DNA of 34,532 nt from Campylobacterota bacterium (lineage in GTDB: Bacteria; Campylobacterota; Campylobacteria; Campylobacterales; SZUA-545): contig PWVP01000020.1 in the NCBI GenBank assembly GCA_003561815.1, forward strand, positions 1 to 34,532. The letters run 5' to 3'. A model generated the notes under the pieces. It saw only the letters and a list, made by a program, of their open reading frames with translations, had not been told where the DNA came from and searched no databases. The translations under genes were made by a program, and so were the position numbers. This document shows, in pieces, positions 1,420 to 10,975 of this stretch; position 1 is the stretch's first letter; each line of letters begins with the position of its first letter.

Positions 1420-2652
1420 ATGATTAGACGAACTCTGAGTCTTATCCTGCCTCTGATCCTGATCGCCTCAGCGGCGGCGGCGAGTCTGATGCTGCCTAAA
1501 CCGGCCGGGTTTGAGACGGCGGCGAATTTTGTGGCGTGGGGGCTTCTGGCCGGGGCGGCGTTTCTGGGTGTGCACTTTCACCGGCTGAATGTGCTGCTCG
1601 GGGTGGGGCTGATGGCGATGATCTTTTTTGCACTGGCGCAGCCCTGGGCGATCGCACAGCTGAGCCTACCGGTGCGCGATCTGATCTGGATGACGGCGTG
1701 GTGGCTACTGCCGGTGGGGCTTTTGCTGCTGGCATGGCTGCCGGAGCGAAGCCTCTTTTCCATCGCGATGCTGCTGCGGCTGCTCTTGATCGTCGCGATC
1801 GCGCTGGGGGTGGTCGCTGCGGCACTGGGGGGGCACGATGCGCAGCTGGCCGCCTGGCTAAGTGTGGAGCTGCTCTCTATCGAGCTGCCTTTGATGCTGA
1901 CCGCTATCCCCCAGGGGGGGCTGCTGATGGCGCTTCTGGCCGTGCTGGGACTACTGCTCAAAGCGGCACTCGATCGCCACGGAATCTTGCCGCTGGCGTG
2001 GCTGGGGATGCTGGGTTTTTCGCTCACTGCCCTGCTCTACTGGCCCGATGGCGGTTCGATGGCGCTGCTTTTTGGCGCTGCGGCCCTGGTGATGATCGTC
2101 TCGCTGATGCAGCTGAGCTACCGGCTGGCGTTTTATGATGAGCTCACCGGTATCCCCGGACGGCGTGCGCTCTACGAGGCGATGGGGCGCCTGGGTGGAC
2201 GCTACACCGTCGCAATGAGCGATATCGACTTTTTTAAAAAGTTTAACGACACCCACGGCCACGATGTGGGTGATCAGGTGCTCAAAATGGTCGCCCTCAA
2301 ACTCCAGAGCGTGCGCGGTGGGGGCCGGGTGTTTCGCTATGGGGGCGAGGAGTTTACGATTCTCTTCGATGGAAAAGAGGCGATCGAGGCGCAGCCGTTT
2401 TTAGAGGAGGTGCGGCGCACAGTGGAGGCCAGCCACTTCACCAAACGCGCCGCCAATCGGCCCAAAACCAAGCCCAAAAAGGGCCAAAAAACAGCCAGCG
2501 GCTCAAACGGGACGAAGCTCAAAGTCACCATTAGCCTCGGTGCCGCCTCCAAAGATGAGCGGCGGCCCAACCCCGAGGCGGTGATGAAGGCGGCCGATGA
2601 GGCGCTCTATAAAGCGAAGGAGGCGGGGCGAAACTGCGTGGTGGTGGCCTGA
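1420..2652 (+). CDS. Multi-TM diguanylate cyclase (GGEEF) without a canonical I-site
   Basis: This 410-aa protein would make c-di-GMP from two GTP. Residues 1-232 are almost entirely hydrophobic (about seven or eight TM helices), forming an integral-membrane input region I cannot assign to a named family. Residues 237-410 are the GGDEF domain, with DELTGIPGRRAL, the metal/GTP region SDIDFFKKFNDTHGHDVGD and the active-site loop YGGEEF (308-312). At the position of the inhibitory RxxD site the sequence reads RGGG, so product inhibition through the primary I-site is probably absent. A lysine/arginine-rich insertion (about 342-358) sits inside the domain. No clear Shine-Dalgarno precedes the ATG, which follows the 33-aa gene by 9 nt, so translation may be coupled. 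Confidence 0.88.
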   Translation: MIRRTLSLILPLILIASAAAASLMLPKPAGFETAANFVAWGLLAGAAFLGVHFHRLNVLLGVGLMAMIFFALAQPWAIAQLSLPVRDLIWMTAWWLLPVGLLLLAWLPERSLFSIAMLLRLLLIVAIALGVVAAALGGHDAQLAAWLSVELLSIELPLMLTAIPQGGLLMALLAVLGLLLKAALDRHGILPLAWLGMLGFSLTALLYWPDGGSMALLFGAAALVMIVSLMQLSYRLAFYDELTGIPGRRALYEAMGRLGGRYTVAMSDIDFFKKFNDTHGHDVGDQVLKMVALKLQSVRGGGRVFRYGGEEFTILFDGKEAIEAQPFLEEVRRTVEASHFTKRAANRPKTKPKKGQKTASGSNGTKLKVTISLGAASKDERRPNPEAVMKAADEALYKAKEAGRNCVVVA

Positions 2653-2743: not shown

Positions 2744-4144
2744 ATGTACACCATCGCACTGGTTGGCCGGCCCAATGCAGGCAAAAGCACCCTTTTTAAC
2801 CGTCTAAGCCGTAGCCACGAAGCGATTATCAGCGATGTGGCGGGCACCACACGGGATGTGAAGCGCGCCGAGGTGCGTGTGGCGGAGCGCTCGATCCAGA
2901 TTCTCGATACCGGCGGGCTGGAGGATCGCGATGAGCTCTTTAGCTCTGTGCGGCGCCATGCGATCGAGGCGGCGCGTCAGGCCGATGCGGTGATCTTTCT
3001 AGTCGATGGTCAGATGCTGCCAGATGATCAGGATCGCAAGCTCTTTTTCGAGCTGCAGGCGATCAACCCCACCATCTTGCTAGCGCTCAATAAGATCGAT
3101 AACGAAAAGCTAAACGAGCATCTTTATGACTACATGAGCTTCGGCGCTGCCGATCTGATCGCCCTCTCCTGTGCCCACAAGCGGGGGCTGGATAAGCTTG
3201 AGGCGTGGATCGCCACAGTCAGCGCCCCCCAGGAGCCGATCGTGATCGATGAGGCGATCGACCCGGAGGGGTTTCTTGAGGCGTTTGACGCCTCGGGCGA
3301 GCGGCTTGAGGGCGAAGAGGTGCCGATGGAGGGATCGGACTTTGAGGAGGGAGGGCCGATTCGCGTGGCGATCATCGGACGGCCCAATGTGGGCAAAAGC
3401 AGCCTTCTAAACGCGCTTGTGGGCCACGAGCGATCGGTTGTCAGCCCCCAGGCGGGCACCACGATCGATCCGGTCGATGAGGCCATCACCCTAAACGATC
3501 ACCCCTTTTTGTTTGTGGACACGGCGGGCATTCGCCGACGCAGCCGGATTGCCGGGATCGAGAAGTTCGCCTTCGATCGCACCGAAAAGATGCTCGAAAA
3601 GGCGGAGGTGGCACTGATCACCCTTGACTGCAGCGAACCCTTTACCGAGCTGGATGAGCGTATCGCCGGACTGGTGGATAAACACCGTCTGGCGGCGGTC
3701 TTTGTGCTGAACAAATACGATCGGGCCCAGGAGAGCTTCAAGAGTCTGCAAAGCGAGGTGCGCAGGCGGTTTCGGTTTTTAGAGCATGCGCCTTTAATCA
3801 CCGTTTCGGCCCTCTCTAAAAAGCGGACCCATAAGGTGGTGGATCTCATCACCGAAGTGCACGCGAACTACCACCGCCGGCTCCCCACCGCCAAACTCAA
3901 CACCCTGATCACCGAAGCGACGGCGCGCCATAAGATCCCCTCGCTTAAGGGCAAATCGGTGCGGATCTACTACGCCACCCAGTACGGTGTCGCACCGCCA
4001 CGGGTAGCGCTCATCTCCAATCGGCCCGAGGGGCTGCACTTTAGCTATCTGCGCTATCTGGCCAACCGAATGCGCGAAGCGATCGATCTAAGAGGCTCGC
4101 CCCTGATTCTCACCCCACGCCCCAGACGGCAAGAGGAGAGCTAG
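2744..4144 (+). CDS. der: Ribosome biogenesis GTPase Der (EngA)
   Basis: Der is an essential double-GTPase needed for maturation of the 50S subunit. The 466-aa protein has two complete G domains. The first has P-loop GRPNAGKS (8-15), switch DTGG (55-58) and NKID (116-119). The second has GRPNVGKS (212-219), DTAG (259-262) and NKYD (323-326). A basic C-terminal KH-like domain follows. An acidic linker of about 50 residues separates the G domains. The ATG at 2744 follows an AAGG ribosome site. The stop is directly adjacent to the next start (TAGATG), so it is probably cotranscribed with the c-di-GMP genes downstream. The length is normal for the family. Confidence 0.97.
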   Translation: MYTIALVGRPNAGKSTLFNRLSRSHEAIISDVAGTTRDVKRAEVRVAERSIQILDTGGLEDRDELFSSVRRHAIEAARQADAVIFLVDGQMLPDDQDRKLFFELQAINPTILLALNKIDNEKLNEHLYDYMSFGAADLIALSCAHKRGLDKLEAWIATVSAPQEPIVIDEAIDPEGFLEAFDASGERLEGEEVPMEGSDFEEGGPIRVAIIGRPNVGKSSLLNALVGHERSVVSPQAGTTIDPVDEAITLNDHPFLFVDTAGIRRRSRIAGIEKFAFDRTEKMLEKAEVALITLDCSEPFTELDERIAGLVDKHRLAAVFVLNKYDRAQESFKSLQSEVRRRFRFLEHAPLITVSALSKKRTHKVVDLITEVHANYHRRLPTAKLNTLITEATARHKIPSLKGKSVRIYYATQYGVAPPRVALISNRPEGLHFSYLRYLANRMREAIDLRGSPLILTPRPRRQEES

Positions 4145-5917
4145 ATGCCCGGCCAAACGCTGCGCTTTTTACAGAAGATTCGCAGCCGTTTTATCGTCTC
4201 GTTTGTGGCGGTCGTGGCCGTACTGACGGTGACGGTGGTCTCTTTGATCAACAGCGACTATCGCCATCTGATTGACCGCTCTGCGTATACCTCTTTGGAT
4301 GCTCTTAGCGAGTCGATCTTCCAGGCGCTCTGGGTCAGCATGAACTACGGCGACTCGGCGGTGGTGCTCGATGTGCTGCGCGATGCACAGGAGAAGCAGA
4401 TTGTCGATGGGCTGGATCTCTATGTCTCCCAGGAGGTGATTGAGATCTTTCGCCCCGATCTGAGCTACCGCCCCCCCGGCCTGATTGAGGGGGTGTTTCA
4501 AGAGGGCGAAGAGCGGTTTTTAGAGCTAATCGACGATCGGGGTGAGCGGCTGGCGCGCTTTATCAAGCCCCTTAGGGCCGATCAGGGCTGCCTGCAGTGC
4601 CATGTCAATGCCGAGATCGGCACGGTGCTGGGGGTGATGGATCTCACCCTCTCCCTCTCGCAGTACGACGCGCAGGCGGCCCAGTCGATCCAGCGCATCG
4701 TGCTGACCATTCTGGTGCTGGTGGGCATCAGTGCCCTGCTTTTACACCTCATTTCGCAGCGACTCATCTTTACGCCGCTTGATGAGCTGGGCAAAGCCAC
4801 CCGCAAACTCTCTCAGGAGGCGGCGGATTTCGATGTGCGGCTTAAAACCGGCGGGCGAAACGAGTTTGGCGTCGTGGCCCATCAGTTCAACCGCTTTATT
4901 ATGCGGGTGCAGAAGATCAACCAGGAGCTGGCCAAAGAGCAGGCGCGCACCCGGGAGCTGCTGGAGACGCGCGAGGAGGAGATTGAGCGGCGCACCGCCG
5001 AGGTGCGGGAGCTCCACCGCAAGCTCCAATCCTATGTCCGGATTGTCGATCAAAATGTGATCACCTCCCGAACCGATGAGAACGGTATCATCACCTACGC
5101 CAGCGAAGCGTTCTGCCGGGTTTCGGGCTTTTCCAAAGAGGAGCTGATCGGCAAGCCGCACAGCATCGTGCGCCACCCCGACACGCCCGCTAGCCTCTTT
5201 GAGCGGCTCTGGCGCACCCTAAAGGCGGGCAAAAGCTGGGAGGGCGAACTCAAAAACCGCACCAAAAGCGGCCACTTCTACTGGGTCAAAGCGGTCATCT
5301 CCCCGGAGTTTGATGAAGCGGGCAAAATCACCGGCTTCGTAGCTGTCCGGCAGGATGTGACGCTCCAAAAACGGCTGGAAGCGACCCTGGAGGAGCTCAC
5401 CGAGATGACCCGCCGATCCCACACCGATGCTTTGACGGGGCTCTTCAACCGATCGCGCATGAGTGAGCTGCTGGAGATGGAGATTGTCCGGGCAGAGCGC
5501 TACAAAACCCCCTTTAGTGTCGCGCTGATGGATGTGGATCACTTCAAGTCCATCAACGACACCTACGGCCACCTGGAGGGGGATGAGGTGCTCAAAGCGC
5601 TAGCGGAGATTCTGAGAGACAACACCCGCAAGAGTGATATCATCGCCCGGTGGGGGGGTGAGGAGTTCATTATCCTGCTGCCCAACACCGCCGTCGGTTC
5701 CGCCACCCGCAAGGTCGAGCAGCTGCGCAAAGCGGTCGCCGATCACCCCTTTGCGGCCATCGGACAGGTAACTGCGAGCTTTGGTGTCGCCCAGTGGCAG
5801 GCGGGGGATGATGAGGAGAGTCTGGTGGGGCGGGCCGATGTGGCGCTCTACCTGGCTAAAGAGAGTGGCCGAAACCGCGTAGAGGTTGCCCCCGAAGCGA
5901 AGGAGAGTCATGAATAA
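4145..5917 (+). CDS. Heme- and PAS-containing diguanylate cyclase
   Basis: The architecture of this 590-aa protein is clear. There is a TM helix (about 16-36), a periplasmic sensor of about 145 residues with a CLQCH c-type heme motif (149-153) resembling the DUF3365/Tll0287-like fold, and a second TM (about 184-203). A HAMP linker (about 205-258), a coiled coil (260-296), a PAS domain (about 300-405) and a GGDEF domain (about 425-580) follow. The PAS contains IVRHPDTP, W-TLKAGKSW and KNRTKSGHFYWV, strongly resembling the FAD-binding PAS of the aerotaxis receptor Aer. The GGDEF domain has GGEEF at 504-508 and a canonical I-site RKSD (495-498), so it should be active and feedback-inhibited. It follows der without a gap and overlaps the next gene by 8 nt. 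Heme attachment and the signal sensed are inference. Confidence 0.9.
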   Translation: MPGQTLRFLQKIRSRFIVSFVAVVAVLTVTVVSLINSDYRHLIDRSAYTSLDALSESIFQALWVSMNYGDSAVVLDVLRDAQEKQIVDGLDLYVSQEVIEIFRPDLSYRPPGLIEGVFQEGEERFLELIDDRGERLARFIKPLRADQGCLQCHVNAEIGTVLGVMDLTLSLSQYDAQAAQSIQRIVLTILVLVGISALLLHLISQRLIFTPLDELGKATRKLSQEAADFDVRLKTGGRNEFGVVAHQFNRFIMRVQKINQELAKEQARTRELLETREEEIERRTAEVRELHRKLQSYVRIVDQNVITSRTDENGIITYASEAFCRVSGFSKEELIGKPHSIVRHPDTPASLFERLWRTLKAGKSWEGELKNRTKSGHFYWVKAVISPEFDEAGKITGFVAVRQDVTLQKRLEATLEELTEMTRRSHTDALTGLFNRSRMSELLEMEIVRAERYKTPFSVALMDVDHFKSINDTYGHLEGDEVLKALAEILRDNTRKSDIIARWGGEEFIILLPNTAVGSATRKVEQLRKAVADHPFAAIGQVTASFGVAQWQAGDDEESLVGRADVALYLAKESGRNRVEVAPEAKESHE

Positions 5918-7316
5918 GGTCCCCCTCAAACAGCTGATCACTGCCCGCATCCTGAGTGCTTTTCTGGTCTTTTTGGTCGCGATCGTGGCGGTGGTGCTCT
6001 TTCAGTTTCGTCAGTACACCATCGTCAGTATCGAGGAGAAGTCCGAAGCGATCGGGGAGCTGGTGCTGGCCGGACTCACCGCCCATATGCGTAGCGGCAC
6101 CATGGACGATCGCAGCTACTTTTTAAGTGAGATTGCCCAGATGGGCGGCGTGAACGATATCTGGATTGTCCGAAGCCGGGAGCTGGATGCGCAGTTTCCC
6201 CAAGACCAGAGCGATCGCTTCGAGCGGGATGGGGATGGGCTGGATCTGGCCACTTTCCAGAGGGCTGTGAGTCAGTTTGAGATTGATGAGTTTGGCCAGG
6301 GGGTGATGCGCGTGGCGATCCCCTATGTCGCCCGTAGCGACGGTGTGCTCAACTGCCTGCAGTGTCACCATGTGCCCGAAGGCACCGTGCTCGGCGTGCT
6401 CAATGTCGAGAGCTCCATCACCGAAGCGCGGGCGAGTGCGCTGATCTATGGCGGGCTGGTGGCGCTGATGGTGCTGCTCTTTGTCGCAGCGATGATCGCC
6501 GGATCCATGCAGCTGACCAACCGCTTCGTTTTGTTGCCGCTACAGAAGATGGTCTATCTCTTTGAGAAGGCGATCGGCAAAAAGGTGCGTATCGATGAGT
6601 CGCTCTTCCGTACCGAGGAGTTTACCGCTGCGGTTAGCCGCTTTAACCGGGTGGTCGATGAGGTCAACGCTAAAACCCTGGAGCTAAAGGGGCTCAATAA
6701 AGAGATCGAGTCCACCCTAAAAGAGACCATCTTCACCCTCGCGGCGGTGGGTGAACGAAAATGTGAAGAGACCGGTAATCATGTGCGGCGGGTGCAGTAC
6801 TTTAGCGCGCTACTGGCCGAGCTGGCCGAGCTGCCGCCCGATCAGGTCGAGCTGATCAAGATCGCCTCGCCGCTTCACGATATCGGCAAAGTGGGCATCC
6901 CCGAGCGGATTATCCAAAAACCGGGCAAACTGACCGACGCAGAGTATGAGGTGGTGCGCACCCACGCCACGCTGGGCTATGAGATGCTGCGCCACTCCAG
7001 CCGGGATGTGATGCAGGCAGCCGCCACCATCGCCCACGAACACCACGAGCGCTACGATGGCCACGGCTACCCCCGCGGGATCGAAAGGGAGGCTATCCAT
7101 ATCTTTGGTAGAATTACGGCGATTGCCGATGTCTTCGATGCACTGGCCAACGATCGCTTCTACAAGCCCGCCTGGTCGCACGAGGAGATCAAGCGCTACT
7201 TCCACGAGCAGCGGGGCCAACAGTTTGACCCGCACCTGACCGATCTCTTTTTAGGCCACTATGGGGCGTTTGTGGAGATTTTAAACCGATACCGAGACGA
7301 TAAGGAACCGAATTGA
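5910..7316 (+). CDS. Heme-containing HD-GYP c-di-GMP phosphodiesterase
   Basis: I take ATG 5910 (MNKVPLKQ; 468 aa) because AAGGAG lies just upstream; the track's extra eight residues lack support. It has TM1 (about 8-31), a periplasmic region with CLQCH (149-153), TM2 (about 178-198), a short HAMP-like linker and an HD-GYP domain (about 275-465). The catalytic signatures are intact: ETGNHVRR, HDIGKVGIP (323-331) and HHERYDGHGYP (378-388). HD-GYP enzymes hydrolyse c-di-GMP. The sensor half resembles that of the preceding cyclase, including the heme motif at the same residue number, so the pair probably arose by sharing one sensor module. The start overlaps the cyclase stop (ATGAATAA), and its own stop overlaps the TTG of serS. 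Confidence 0.9.
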   Translation: MNKVPLKQLITARILSAFLVFLVAIVAVVLFQFRQYTIVSIEEKSEAIGELVLAGLTAHMRSGTMDDRSYFLSEIAQMGGVNDIWIVRSRELDAQFPQDQSDRFERDGDGLDLATFQRAVSQFEIDEFGQGVMRVAIPYVARSDGVLNCLQCHHVPEGTVLGVLNVESSITEARASALIYGGLVALMVLLFVAAMIAGSMQLTNRFVLLPLQKMVYLFEKAIGKKVRIDESLFRTEEFTAAVSRFNRVVDEVNAKTLELKGLNKEIESTLKETIFTLAAVGERKCEETGNHVRRVQYFSALLAELAELPPDQVELIKIASPLHDIGKVGIPERIIQKPGKLTDAEYEVVRTHATLGYEMLRHSSRDVMQAAATIAHEHHERYDGHGYPRGIEREAIHIFGRITAIADVFDALANDRFYKPAWSHEEIKRYFHEQRGQQFDPHLTDLFLGHYGAFVEILNRYRDDKEPN

Positions 7317-8575
7317 TCGATCTGAAGCTTCTAGAGAGTGAGTTTGAGGCCACCGCCGAGGCGCTGCAGCGGCGGGGAGTGTTGCCCGAGACGATAGCTG
7401 CCCTAAAGGAGGCCTCCAGTGCACTCAAAGCGGCCAAGCAGGAGGCGGAAGCACAGCAGGCGGAGCAGAACCGGCTTAGCCGCCACTTCGGTGAGCTCAA
7501 AAAGAGCGGCCAGCCAGCCGATGAGCTGCAGCAGACGCTTTCAGCGATGAAGCAGACCATCGCCCAGGCACAAGAGCAGGTGCGCACACGCCAGATGGCG
7601 CTGGAGGCGATCGCACTCACCATCCCCAACCTCCCCGATGCGGATCTGCCCGTGGGTGAGAGCGAGGAGCAGAACCTTCTGCTCAAAACCGTCGGCACGC
7701 CGCCTCTTTTTGATTTCGATCCGCTTCCGCACTATGAGCTGGGCAGCCGCTTAGGGTGGCTCGATTTTGAGCGCGGGGCGAAGATTAGCGGTAGCCGCTT
7801 TACGGTGATGTGCGGCCAGGCGGCGCGGCTGGAGCGCGCACTCATTAGCTACATGCTGGACTTTAACCGTGAGCGGGGCTTTGAGGAGGTGTGGGTTCCG
7901 GCACTGATTAATCGCCGTGCGCTGATGGGCACAGGGCAGCTGCCGAAGTTTGAGGAGGATCTCTATCTGGCCGAGTCCAAAGAGGTGGATGAGAACGATC
8001 TCTTCCTCGCCCCCACAGCGGAGGTGCCCCTCATCAACCTCTATCAGGATGAGATCATCCCCGAATCGAAACTGCCGATCAAGCTCACCGCCCACACCCC
8101 CTGCTTTAGAAAAGAGGCGGGCTCGGCCGGGCGGGATACCCGGGGGATGATCCGCCAGCACCAGTTTGACAAGGTGGAGATTATCGCCCTCACTCAGCCG
8201 GAGGCCTCCGATCGCCTCTTTGAGGAGATGGTCCAGTGCGCCTCGGATCTGCTCAGCTCCCTGGAGCTTCCCCACCGGCTGATGCAGCTTTGTACCGGGG
8301 ATATGGGGTTTGCAGCGGCACGGACGGTGGATCTGGAGGTGTGGCTGCCCTCTGAAGGGCGCTACCGCGAGATCAGCTCCGTCTCCAATACCCGCGACTT
8401 TCAACCCCGAAGGGCGCGTATCCGCTATAAGGCGGATAAAAAGAATCGGCTGCTTCACGCGCTCAACGGCTCCTCTTTGGCCGTCGGGCGCACCCTGATC
8501 GCCTTGATGGAGAACGGACAACAAAAAGATGGCCAGATCCGGCTCCCCAAGGTGCTCGATCGCTATCTCAGCTAA
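7313..8575 (+). CDS. serS: Seryl-tRNA synthetase
   Basis: SerS charges tRNA-Ser with serine in the cytoplasm; it is a class II synthetase. The 420-aa sequence starts MIDLKLLESEFE, has the long N-terminal coiled-coil arm (about 25-105), motif 2 (CFRKEAGSAGRDTRGMIRQH) and motif 3 (AVGRTLIALMEN). The only start giving the family's normal N-terminus is TTG 7313, which overlaps the HD-GYP stop in TTGA and has TAAGGAA upstream. It is therefore probably translationally coupled to the phosphodiesterase. Two tRNA-Ser genes lie at the right end of the window, not linked to it. Length and motifs are normal. Confidence 0.96.
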   Translation: MIDLKLLESEFEATAEALQRRGVLPETIAALKEASSALKAAKQEAEAQQAEQNRLSRHFGELKKSGQPADELQQTLSAMKQTIAQAQEQVRTRQMALEAIALTIPNLPDADLPVGESEEQNLLLKTVGTPPLFDFDPLPHYELGSRLGWLDFERGAKISGSRFTVMCGQAARLERALISYMLDFNRERGFEEVWVPALINRRALMGTGQLPKFEEDLYLAESKEVDENDLFLAPTAEVPLINLYQDEIIPESKLPIKLTAHTPCFRKEAGSAGRDTRGMIRQHQFDKVEIIALTQPEASDRLFEEMVQCASDLLSSLELPHRLMQLCTGDMGFAAARTVDLEVWLPSEGRYREISSVSNTRDFQPRRARIRYKADKKNRLLHALNGSSLAVGRTLIALMENGQQKDGQIRLPKVLDRYLS

Positions 8576-8584
8576 GGAGACGCG

Positions 8585-10975
8585 GTGGCCAAAGAAGCCC
8601 ACGAAGATGAAGAGGTGGTGGTCCTTAAGGAGGACGAGGAGGAGCCCTCCGATCGCCCCAATCGCCCAAAACCCAAGCCCTCTTTAAAAGCGCGCGCGCA
8701 AGAGCGCCTGAGTGCGATCAAGGCGGTTTTGTGGCAACGCGCCACCCTCTATCTGCTCGCCGCTGCAGCGGTGATCGGGATCTTTGTGCTGCTCTTTAAC
8801 GCCGTCGATCGCTCCCGTGAGCCGGTCTACACCCCGCCACCGCTTGATGCCCGCGATGCGCTCCCCCCTTCGATGGATGAGCGGACGATGATTGCTGCCA
8901 ATGTCCAGATGAGCAGCCTCGATCGCAAAATCGCCAAAGCGGGGCAGCTCTACGCTGAGGGGGATGTACAGAGCGCACTGGATCTCTACGGCGAAATCTC
9001 CCTCTTTAGCGAGTCGCTCTCTTTATACAATCTCGGCGTCGCCCGGATGCGCCAGGGCGAGATTAAAGGCGCGCTGGAGGCGTTTGAGGCCTCTTTGGAA
9101 CTTGAGGAGCACCGCACTGTCAGTGCGATCAACGGCGCCGTCTGCGCACTCAAGCTGGGCCAAAAAGATCGCTTCAGGCGCCTGATCGCCATCGCCCGGG
9201 AGAGCCTGCCCTCTGAGAGCCGTTCGCCGCTTTTTAGCTACTACTACGCGCTGATTAACTACTACGACGATCGCCCCTTTCACGCCCTGGCCGCCGCCAG
9301 CCTGCCCACGGTGGAGTTTCTAGGAGAAGGGCAGCGGGCGATTGCGGCCAAGATGCATCTCATCTTTGACGATGCGCTGGGTGCCATCGATCAGCTCGAG
9401 GCGCTCAATCGCCAGGAGGATCTCTTCGCACTGGGGCTGCTCTATGCCCGCGCAGGGGAGTACTCCCTGGCCGCCGATCGGCTCCAGCGCGCCATCTCGG
9501 CCAACATTCAGCGCCAAAAGGCGCGCGCGGCGCTTTTGCTGGTCCATCTTAAAAGTGGCTTCTTTCGCGATGCGGGCAATCTAATCGAAGAGATGCGACG
9601 CGATGGGGCCAATCCGCTGCTCTACCCCATCAAGGTCAAGCTCAAAGATCGGCTCTTTGATGTGCGCCTGGCGCAGGGTTACTTTAGTGAGCAGCTGCTT
9701 TTGGATGAGCGGGTCTTTTATCAGGCGCTTTTTCACTTCACCCCCTATCTGATGATTGAGCCCGATCGGGCTATTAGTGAGATCCAAAAGGGGCAGGTTG
9801 CTCTCGATGAGGGGCAGCTTCGAAGCGCAAGCGCCATCCTGGAGGGGAGCCAGGCGCTAGCGAGTACCAACGCGCGCATCTCGCTGGCGGTGAAGCTGGC
9901 TATCAACAACCGGCTTTTAATGGCCAATGACATCCTCAAAGAGGCTGAAGAGCGGTTTCGAAACAACGACATCCTGCAGTACAACCTCGCTCTAAGCTAT
10001 GCACAGCTGGGCAACTTCCCCAAAGCGTACCGCCACTTTCGCCGCGCCTATTTTCTCAACCACAACAACACCCGTGCCGGGGTCTATGCAGCGATGTGTG
10101 CGCCCCTGGCCGGTGCCGATGAGGATCGGCTTGTGGGGGAGCTCAGCCAGATGCTTCAGGGCGAAGAGGAGAGTCCACAAGCGGCCTTCTACCTGGCGCT
10201 GCTGGGATTTTATACCGACAACCTCCCGGCCACCGCCCAGTGGCTGGAGCGGAGTGAGCGCGCCGAGGATGTGCGCCACGATCTGCTCGATCTCTTCGCA
10301 GCCGATCGGATGAACCGTAGCGGTGCGCTCCAGGAGGCGGCCGATCGCTTGCGCGATCGCTATCCGCGGGATCTGCTGGTCAATATGTTTCACCTCTACG
10401 CCGAAAACAGAGATAAACCGATTCGCCGATTCGCCTTCGATGCGCAGAACTTTATGGACTCGCGCCGCTTTGAGTTTGATACCCTCTTTTATGGCGCACC
10501 GGTGGCGCGGGATCTCTACATCCAGCTCGGGCTGATCACCGGCAATCTTCGCCAGGTGCGCACACTCCTGCAGCAGCGGCTCAGTATCGAGCAGGGGGAG
10601 GTGCGCTCTTTAATGCTGGCGCTGGCCTGGACCAACATCTACCTACAAAACCATGAAGAGGCGTTTGTGCTGATTAACGAGCTAATCGATCGCCACGGTA
10701 TGCGCGATAGCGAGACCTTCTTAACCGGTGCGATCGCCGCGATCGGTGCTGGGCATAAAGAGAATGCGATTATTCTGCTGCAGCTGGCCAAGGGGGCAGA
10801 CCCCCGCTTACAGGAGGCGCGCTACGGACTGGGGCTGCTCTATATGGAGGTGGGTAACGCCGAGGGGGCGGCGGTGGAGTTTAACCTGATGCAGCGGGGC
10901 CACTACGAGAGCCGCTACTTCGACTTCGATATCCGCGCCATCGACGACCCGGAGCTTCTGGCTATCACCCCTTAG
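8585..10975 (+). CDS. Membrane-anchored TPR-repeat protein
   Basis: The 796-aa protein starts at GTG 8585, ten bases after serS and behind a good AAGGAGA site. Residues 1-50 are very acidic then basic and cytoplasmic. A single TM (about 54-72) follows, and the rest is helical TPR-like repeats, for example AGQLYAEGDVQSALDLYGEI, LSYAQLGNFPKAYRHFRRAYFLN and YGLGLLYMEVGNAEGAAVEF. The bulk is therefore probably periplasmic and works in protein-protein interactions. I recall a large hypothetical protein next to serS in Helicobacter pylori as well, so the linkage may be conserved. Its specific partner is unknown. Its 3' end overlaps the convergent gene by 4 nt. Confidence 0.8.
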   Translation: MAKEAHEDEEVVVLKEDEEEPSDRPNRPKPKPSLKARAQERLSAIKAVLWQRATLYLLAAAAVIGIFVLLFNAVDRSREPVYTPPPLDARDALPPSMDERTMIAANVQMSSLDRKIAKAGQLYAEGDVQSALDLYGEISLFSESLSLYNLGVARMRQGEIKGALEAFEASLELEEHRTVSAINGAVCALKLGQKDRFRRLIAIARESLPSESRSPLFSYYYALINYYDDRPFHALAAASLPTVEFLGEGQRAIAAKMHLIFDDALGAIDQLEALNRQEDLFALGLLYARAGEYSLAADRLQRAISANIQRQKARAALLLVHLKSGFFRDAGNLIEEMRRDGANPLLYPIKVKLKDRLFDVRLAQGYFSEQLLLDERVFYQALFHFTPYLMIEPDRAISEIQKGQVALDEGQLRSASAILEGSQALASTNARISLAVKLAINNRLLMANDILKEAEERFRNNDILQYNLALSYAQLGNFPKAYRHFRRAYFLNHNNTRAGVYAAMCAPLAGADEDRLVGELSQMLQGEEESPQAAFYLALLGFYTDNLPATAQWLERSERAEDVRHDLLDLFAADRMNRSGALQEAADRLRDRYPRDLLVNMFHLYAENRDKPIRRFAFDAQNFMDSRRFEFDTLFYGAPVARDLYIQLGLITGNLRQVRTLLQQRLSIEQGEVRSLMLALAWTNIYLQNHEEAFVLINELIDRHGMRDSETFLTGAIAAIGAGHKENAIILLQLAKGADPRLQEARYGLGLLYMEVGNAEGAAVEFNLMQRGHYESRYFDFDIRAIDDPELLAITP

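Follow-up and report, generated by a model that had tools for sequence, protein, structure and literature searches.

Overlapping genes for a diguanylate cyclase and an HD-GYP phosphodiesterase with predicted heme-c sensors from two separate clades in a Campylobacterota genome

The window that we analyzed is a stretch of 34,532 nucleotides from the draft genome of a Campylobacterota bacterium (contig PWVP01000020.1), and the locus of interest comprises two genes for enzymes of c-di-GMP metabolism that lie between two flanking genes which we take, from sequence knowledge, to be der (EngA-like GTPase) and serS:

2744..4144, + strand: der (EngA-like GTPase), upstream flank of the der-X-serS junction in relatives
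4145..5917, + strand: membrane diguanylate cyclase of 590 aa, with the order TM, periplasmic c-heme sCache-type sensor (predicted), TM, HAMP, Aer-like PAS and GGEEF
5910..7316, + strand: membrane HD-GYP phosphodiesterase of 468 aa, with the order TM, periplasmic c-heme sensor (predicted), TM, linker and HD-GYP
7313..8575, + strand: serS, downstream flank, with a TTG start and 4 nt shared with the HD-GYP stop

An earlier note on this DNA had described a GGEEF cyclase and an HD-GYP phosphodiesterase that overlap by 8 nt, and the coordinates of the reading frames confirm this arrangement. The second frame begins at an upstream TTG (5886) in the list of open reading frames, and we took the ATG at 5910 as its start because it agrees with the start of the orthologues. 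Since the ATG of the cyclase (4145) immediately follows the der stop (which ends at 4144) and the serS start (7313) lies 4 nt inside the end of the HD-GYP gene, all four genes are tightly packed. The surroundings also hold a third c-di-GMP gene, encoding a multi-TM GGDEF protein 5' of der (window 1420-2652), a position that it also occupies in several relatives, and a large TPR protein downstream of serS (window 8585-10975) that is conserved in most of the family.

Both proteins had been described as a periplasmic domain with CLQCH at residues 149-153 between two TM segments, which the reading frames bear out: hydrophobic stretches flank the motif at about 11-39 and 178-210 in the cyclase and at about 4-41 and 173-204 in the HD-GYP protein. 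The remaining domains are as follows:

4253..4675, + strand: cyclase periplasmic sensor, residues about 37-177 (AlphaFold2 pLDDT 79; Foldseek matches 3b42 and 3b47)
4760..4912, + strand: cyclase HAMP, residues 206-256 (Pfam 34.2 bits, cut-off 25)
5069..5359, + strand: cyclase cytoplasmic PAS of the Aer/MmoS/NifL FAD type, residues 309-405
5417..5878, + strand: cyclase GGDEF domain, residues 425-578, with GGEEF at 504
6759..7238, + strand: HD-GYP catalytic domain, residues 284-443, with HDIGK at 323, HHERYDG at 378 and GYP at 386

Judged from their sequences, the catalytic motifs of both enzymes are intact. The GGDEF domain of the cyclase (158.7 bits in Pfam; signature RKSDIIARWGGEEF) carries an RKSD I-site five residues ahead of GGEEF and thus shows both the GG(D/E)EF signature and the RxxD I-site of diguanylate cyclases. 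In the HD-GYP protein, Pfam finds HD_5/HD (HD_5 at 114 bits). Among solved structures its catalytic domain is closest to PmGH (4mcw, E 3e-57), with which the metal-binding motifs HD and HHExxDGxGYP, characteristic of HD-GYP domains, align.

The cytoplasmic PAS domain of the cyclase has its best solved matches in MmoS (3ewk), Aer (8dik) and NifL (2gj3), all of them FAD redox PAS domains. It is 44% identical to the PAS of Aer, of which His53, Arg57, Asn85 and Arg115 lie at or near FAD (PMC9668731), and keeps these residues as H339, R343, N371 and R402. The cyclase therefore probably carries a second, flavin-based redox sensor inside the cell, which resembles Aer, MmoS PAS-A and the NifL PAS in its FAD-contact residues but, unlike them, follows a predicted periplasmic heme sensor and precedes a GGDEF domain. 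Pfam finds no counterpart of the HAMP and Aer-like PAS in the HD-GYP protein. The pair is therefore not symmetric, and to speak of "matched" sensors on synthase and hydrolase overstates the likeness.

Sequence comparisons indicate that the two periplasmic sensors are homologous and distantly related, given that the N-terminal halves of the proteins align over 262 aa with 26% identity (BLASTP, E=5e-10) and the two sensor-family alignments match in hhalign with E 4.9e-21 over 243 columns. AlphaFold2 models of the sensors, computed as heme-free monomers with a pTM of about 0.6, reach a pLDDT of 79 each and have the same order of elements. Searched with Foldseek, the cyclase sensor model matched GSU0935 (3b42, E 1e-6) and GSU0582 (3b47, E 2e-4), and the HD-GYP sensor model matched the sCache domains of WalK (E 4e-4) and, weakly, 3b47 (E 0.022); superpositions of whole models were poor (rmsd >10 A for 3b42). 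Both sensors are thus modeled as single-Cache folds like the crystallized c-heme sensors GSU0935 and GSU0582, and neither the models nor the profile comparison point to the unrelated folds that would have spoken against a common sensor type. The models show elongated, helical monomers; swapped dimers were seen in the crystals of the Geobacter domains (PMC3460858).

The resemblance to DUF3365/Tll0287-like sensors that the earlier note had proposed held in part. Both sensors are extracytoplasmic Cache domains with a strictly conserved CxxCH, as in the sCache_heme family, but the cyclase stays below the cut-off of PF11845 (Tll0287-like; 18.6 vs 24.1 bits) and the sensors of GSU0935 and GSU0582 match better. 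The cyclase also stays below the cut-off of PF21563 (Mcp40H-20 sensor, the Pfam model related to the GSU0935 and GSU0582 sensors; 15.9 vs 27 bits), which a chemoreceptor (MCP) of the same sensor clade exceeds (30.8 vs 27 bits), and the HD-GYP protein has no match to any Pfam sensor family. A phmmer search of the HD-GYP sensor against the PDB gave chance matches only, and a single-sequence scan of genome contigs with the cyclase sensor gave no match.

The putative heme sites of the two sensors comprise the following residues:

4589..4603, + strand: CLQCH heme-c motif of the cyclase, residues 149-153
4340..4342, + strand: Met66 of the cyclase, predicted distal heme ligand and counterpart of GSU0935 Met60
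6354..6368, + strand: CLQCH heme-c motif of the HD-GYP protein, residues 149-153
6087..6089, + strand: Met60 of the HD-GYP protein, predicted distal heme ligand

Only 2 of 166 non-redundant relatives lack CxxCH, a count that is mildly biased because the search profiles contain the motif; these two are a fragment at a contig end and a weak off-family match. Conservation counts among proteins preselected for CxxCH were set aside as circular. We gave preference to a set of 121 aligned sensors from HD-GYP, GGDEF, MCP and other proteins, because the scan patterns used to find some homologues contain the Met region and the DGC-type and GGDEF parts of this set come mainly from whole-sequence similarity searches. 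Four residues are invariant in all 121, namely the two Cys, the His and a Met that corresponds to Met66 of the cyclase and Met60 of the HD-GYP protein, so the cysteines of CLQCH, whose loss in orthologues would have counted against heme binding, are conserved. In a local alignment of the cyclase sensor to 3b42, which is weak (E 0.88) and numbered from CQSCH (140-144), Met66 pairs with GSU0935 Met60, the reported axial heme ligand (PMC8396549). Met66/Met60 and CLQCH would therefore be equivalent to Met60 and residues 140-144 of GSU0935 by a weak local alignment of family-invariant residues. Taken together, the invariant Cys/Cys/His/Met set and the match to GSU0935 Met60 make a c-type heme with His/Met ligation likely in both predicted sensors.

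That the CxxCH sites would instead be a metal site, a disulfide or chance occurrences is very unlikely, as the motif is found in a fold whose solved members bind heme c, is invariant along with the distal Met in the 121 aligned sensors, and occurs in a genome that encodes a 1085-aa CcsBA-like protein, a kind of protein needed for heme-c maturation. The shared residue number of the two motifs carries little weight and was rejected as a sign of matched sensors: The motif clusters at positions 145-150 in HD-GYP orthologues and at 138-165 in DGC-type sensors, and from these two empirical distributions an exact match is expected by chance in about 4% of cases, so that position 149 reflects the geometry of the family.

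In a tree of the sensors, the HD-GYP sensor of the window groups with HD-GYP proteins (support 1.0) in a clade that spans such proteins of many phyla and is related to order-wide 615-aa GGDEF proteins, while the cyclase sensor groups with other cyclases of the der-serS junction and with chemoreceptors (support 1.0). The pair was thus assembled from two old sensor lineages, and of the proposal that both enzymes share the same sensor, the homology of heme-c-type sensors stands while their sameness does not. A scenario in which one sensor was duplicated locally and its output domain then exchanged could have accounted for the identical motif, its identical residue number and the adjacency of the genes. 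This scenario is rejected by the tree and extremely improbable, because the sensors fall into separate, strongly supported clades, are only 26% identical, and the cyclase of sister genera and its neighbor sensor match the cyclase sensor of the window at 39-50%.

The der-serS junction itself is variable among the 15 genomes of the family. In four of them (G001, G002, G003 and G006) nothing lies between der and serS, in one genus (G004, G007 and G009) there is a single heme DGC, and in another genus (G005, G008 and G010-G014; der was not recognized beside the junction genes in G008) a sensor-HAMP-PAS protein of 434-454 aa that lacks GGDEF precedes a heme DGC and serS. This GGDEF-less protein may serve the cyclase as a partner without catalytic activity; it lies directly before the DGC, for example, at L070 6018-7334, L071 6258-7574, L073 5822-7138, L074 7004-8308 and L076 4365-5729, and in its PAS the RHPD of Aer and the DGC is replaced by RHPTTP or RHPSTP. 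Only the genome of the window combines a DGC and an HD-GYP gene at the junction. Judged by motif and by the length of the frame, about a dozen of the order's 399 genomes carry heme-sensor HD-GYP genes, which also occur in Gammaproteobacteria, Nitrospirota and Desulfobacterota, and at about 70 such loci elsewhere no heme-sensor GGDEF gene was found beside them (flanks of up to 8 kb or to contig ends). With the linkage seen in a single genome, neither selection for a balanced switch nor co-regulation beyond the gene overlap finds support. The genome of the window holds about a dozen heme-c-sensor-like genes, and the pair therefore belongs to a larger sensory repertoire.

As a working model, we propose that each enzyme would be a one-component receptor spanning the membrane and would bind a single c-type heme covalently in its periplasmic single-Cache domain, with proximal ligand His153 and distal ligand Met66 (cyclase) or Met60 (HD-GYP), as suggested by conservation and the GSU0935 alignment. 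Oxidation of the heme or binding of NO would release or replace the Met, and this change would move the long helices that lead into the second TM and thereby alter output activity, a ligand-switch step that we infer from GSU0582/GSU0935 and the sCache_heme literature. The FAD-type PAS of the cyclase would read the cytoplasmic redox state, so that signals on either side of the membrane would control synthesis and only periplasmic ones would control hydrolysis; on balance, the periplasmic redox potential and/or NO would set c-di-GMP. Redox or NO control of c-di-GMP is probably the function of the pair, and we moderately favor the specific version with two heme receptors and an additionally FAD-gated cyclase. 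Of the redox- or gas-controlled balanced switch suggested earlier, support extends to homologous periplasmic sensors of the heme-c type on two opposing enzymes whose catalytic motifs are intact, and the balance, for which we found no support, is a hypothesis.

Which signal the hemes would answer to depends on the precedent chosen. In GSU0582 and GSU0935, which have been proposed as redox sensors, the reduced heme holds the axial Met and oxidation frees it, and their potentials are -156 mV and -251 mV, respectively (PMC8396549), which by analogy makes different thresholds in the cyclase and HD-GYP sensors plausible. This redox reading competes with an NO-sensor behavior inferred by analogy from a signaling-fused sCache_heme domain of P. 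azotoformans, which has a tight grip on NO but does not bind O2 in a stable complex (PMC12889525). If both hemes responded mainly to NO, c-di-GMP would be tuned to nitrosative conditions, and the NO would have to come from neighbors or other nitrogen metabolism; denitrification was rejected as its source because searches of the draft genome for NapA, NirS and NosZ gave none of the three. As this genome is about 90% complete, their absence is weak evidence, for which we prefer redox only slightly; with the closest solved relatives being proposed redox sensors, a switch devoted to NO seems rather unlikely to us. A somewhat better case can be made for two separately acquired signaling genes that share an mRNA, serve their own pathways and form no common switch, as the linkage is confined to one genome, the sensors come from different clades, the many heme HD-GYP loci elsewhere have no heme-DGC neighbor and the junction varies among relatives. 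The 8-nt and 4-nt overlaps suggest co-translation, however, and the two homologous sensors control outputs that make or degrade one and the same diffusible messenger, so that we regard such independence as possible yet still less probable than redox and/or NO control through the pair. More speculative, and in our view quite unlikely, is a two-compartment detector of a redox window in which the cyclase would be on only if periplasmic heme and cytoplasmic FAD agree and the phosphodiesterase would clear c-di-GMP outside this window; its heme would then have a different potential and c-di-GMP would peak in a narrow redox band.

The nearest structural precedent of the pair are GSU0935 and GSU0582, Geobacter chemoreceptors (PDB 3B42 and 3B47) that likewise have a PAS/single-Cache-like fold with CxxCH between two TMs, with the distal Met of GSU0935 on the N-terminal helix as predicted here. 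They, too, are two related sensors of different potentials in one organism, but their output is chemotaxis instead of GGDEF and HD-GYP. By analogy, the nearest functional precedent is E. coli DosC-DosP, a heme-controlled couple of cyclase and phosphodiesterase that senses O2 with cytoplasmic heme b on each enzyme. The sensors of DosC-DosP have unrelated folds (globin vs PAS) and its hydrolase is an EAL protein, whereas both sensors here are periplasmic and Cache-type and the hydrolase is HD-GYP, which places the pair outside the DosC-DosP type. The sCache_heme family (DUF3365/Tll0287; Deshpande et al. 2026) comprises CxxCH-defined Cache domains, with GSU0582/0935 among its members, is enriched in Campylobacterota and occurs in fusions to GGDEF/EAL, kinases and MCPs (PMC12889525). 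Both proteins share its CxxCH-defined Cache domain, but neither exceeds the Tll0287-like Pfam cut-off. The sensor type is already known, and its pairing on a DGC and an HD-GYP protein was found in one genome only among those examined.

HD-GYP does not appear in the text of the sCache_heme paper (PMC12889525), a 2022 census of c-di-GMP sensors does not mention "c-type", and the literature searched, with partial coverage, contained no mention of a heme-c-sensor HD-GYP architecture. A redox-sensing role has been proposed for Bhr-HD-GYP, whose sensor is a hemerythrin with non-heme iron (PMC8846402), as opposed to the predicted periplasmic heme-c Cache domain here. Our comparisons thus point to a family of heme-c sensors on HD-GYP phosphodiesterases of Campylobacterota, Gammaproteobacteria, Nitrospirota and Desulfobacterota, and name a single invariant Met as its likely switch ligand. 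The cyclase, with a predicted heme outside and a predicted flavin inside the cell, would offer a test case for whether a single c-di-GMP enzyme integrates redox information across the membrane.

Sensors of the HD-GYP type also occur on other outputs. Matches to this sensor occur in 156 of the 399 genomes of the order, across which a GGDEF protein of 600-640 aa with such a sensor recurs (e.g., L086 3647-5491), several times directly downstream of a gene for a protein of roughly 600 aa. The HD-GYP sensor of the window also groups weakly (support 0.72) with the sensors of longer proteins of magnetotactic Nitrospirota relatives (L172 8001-10049 and L157), one of which has GGDEF and EAL-like motifs.
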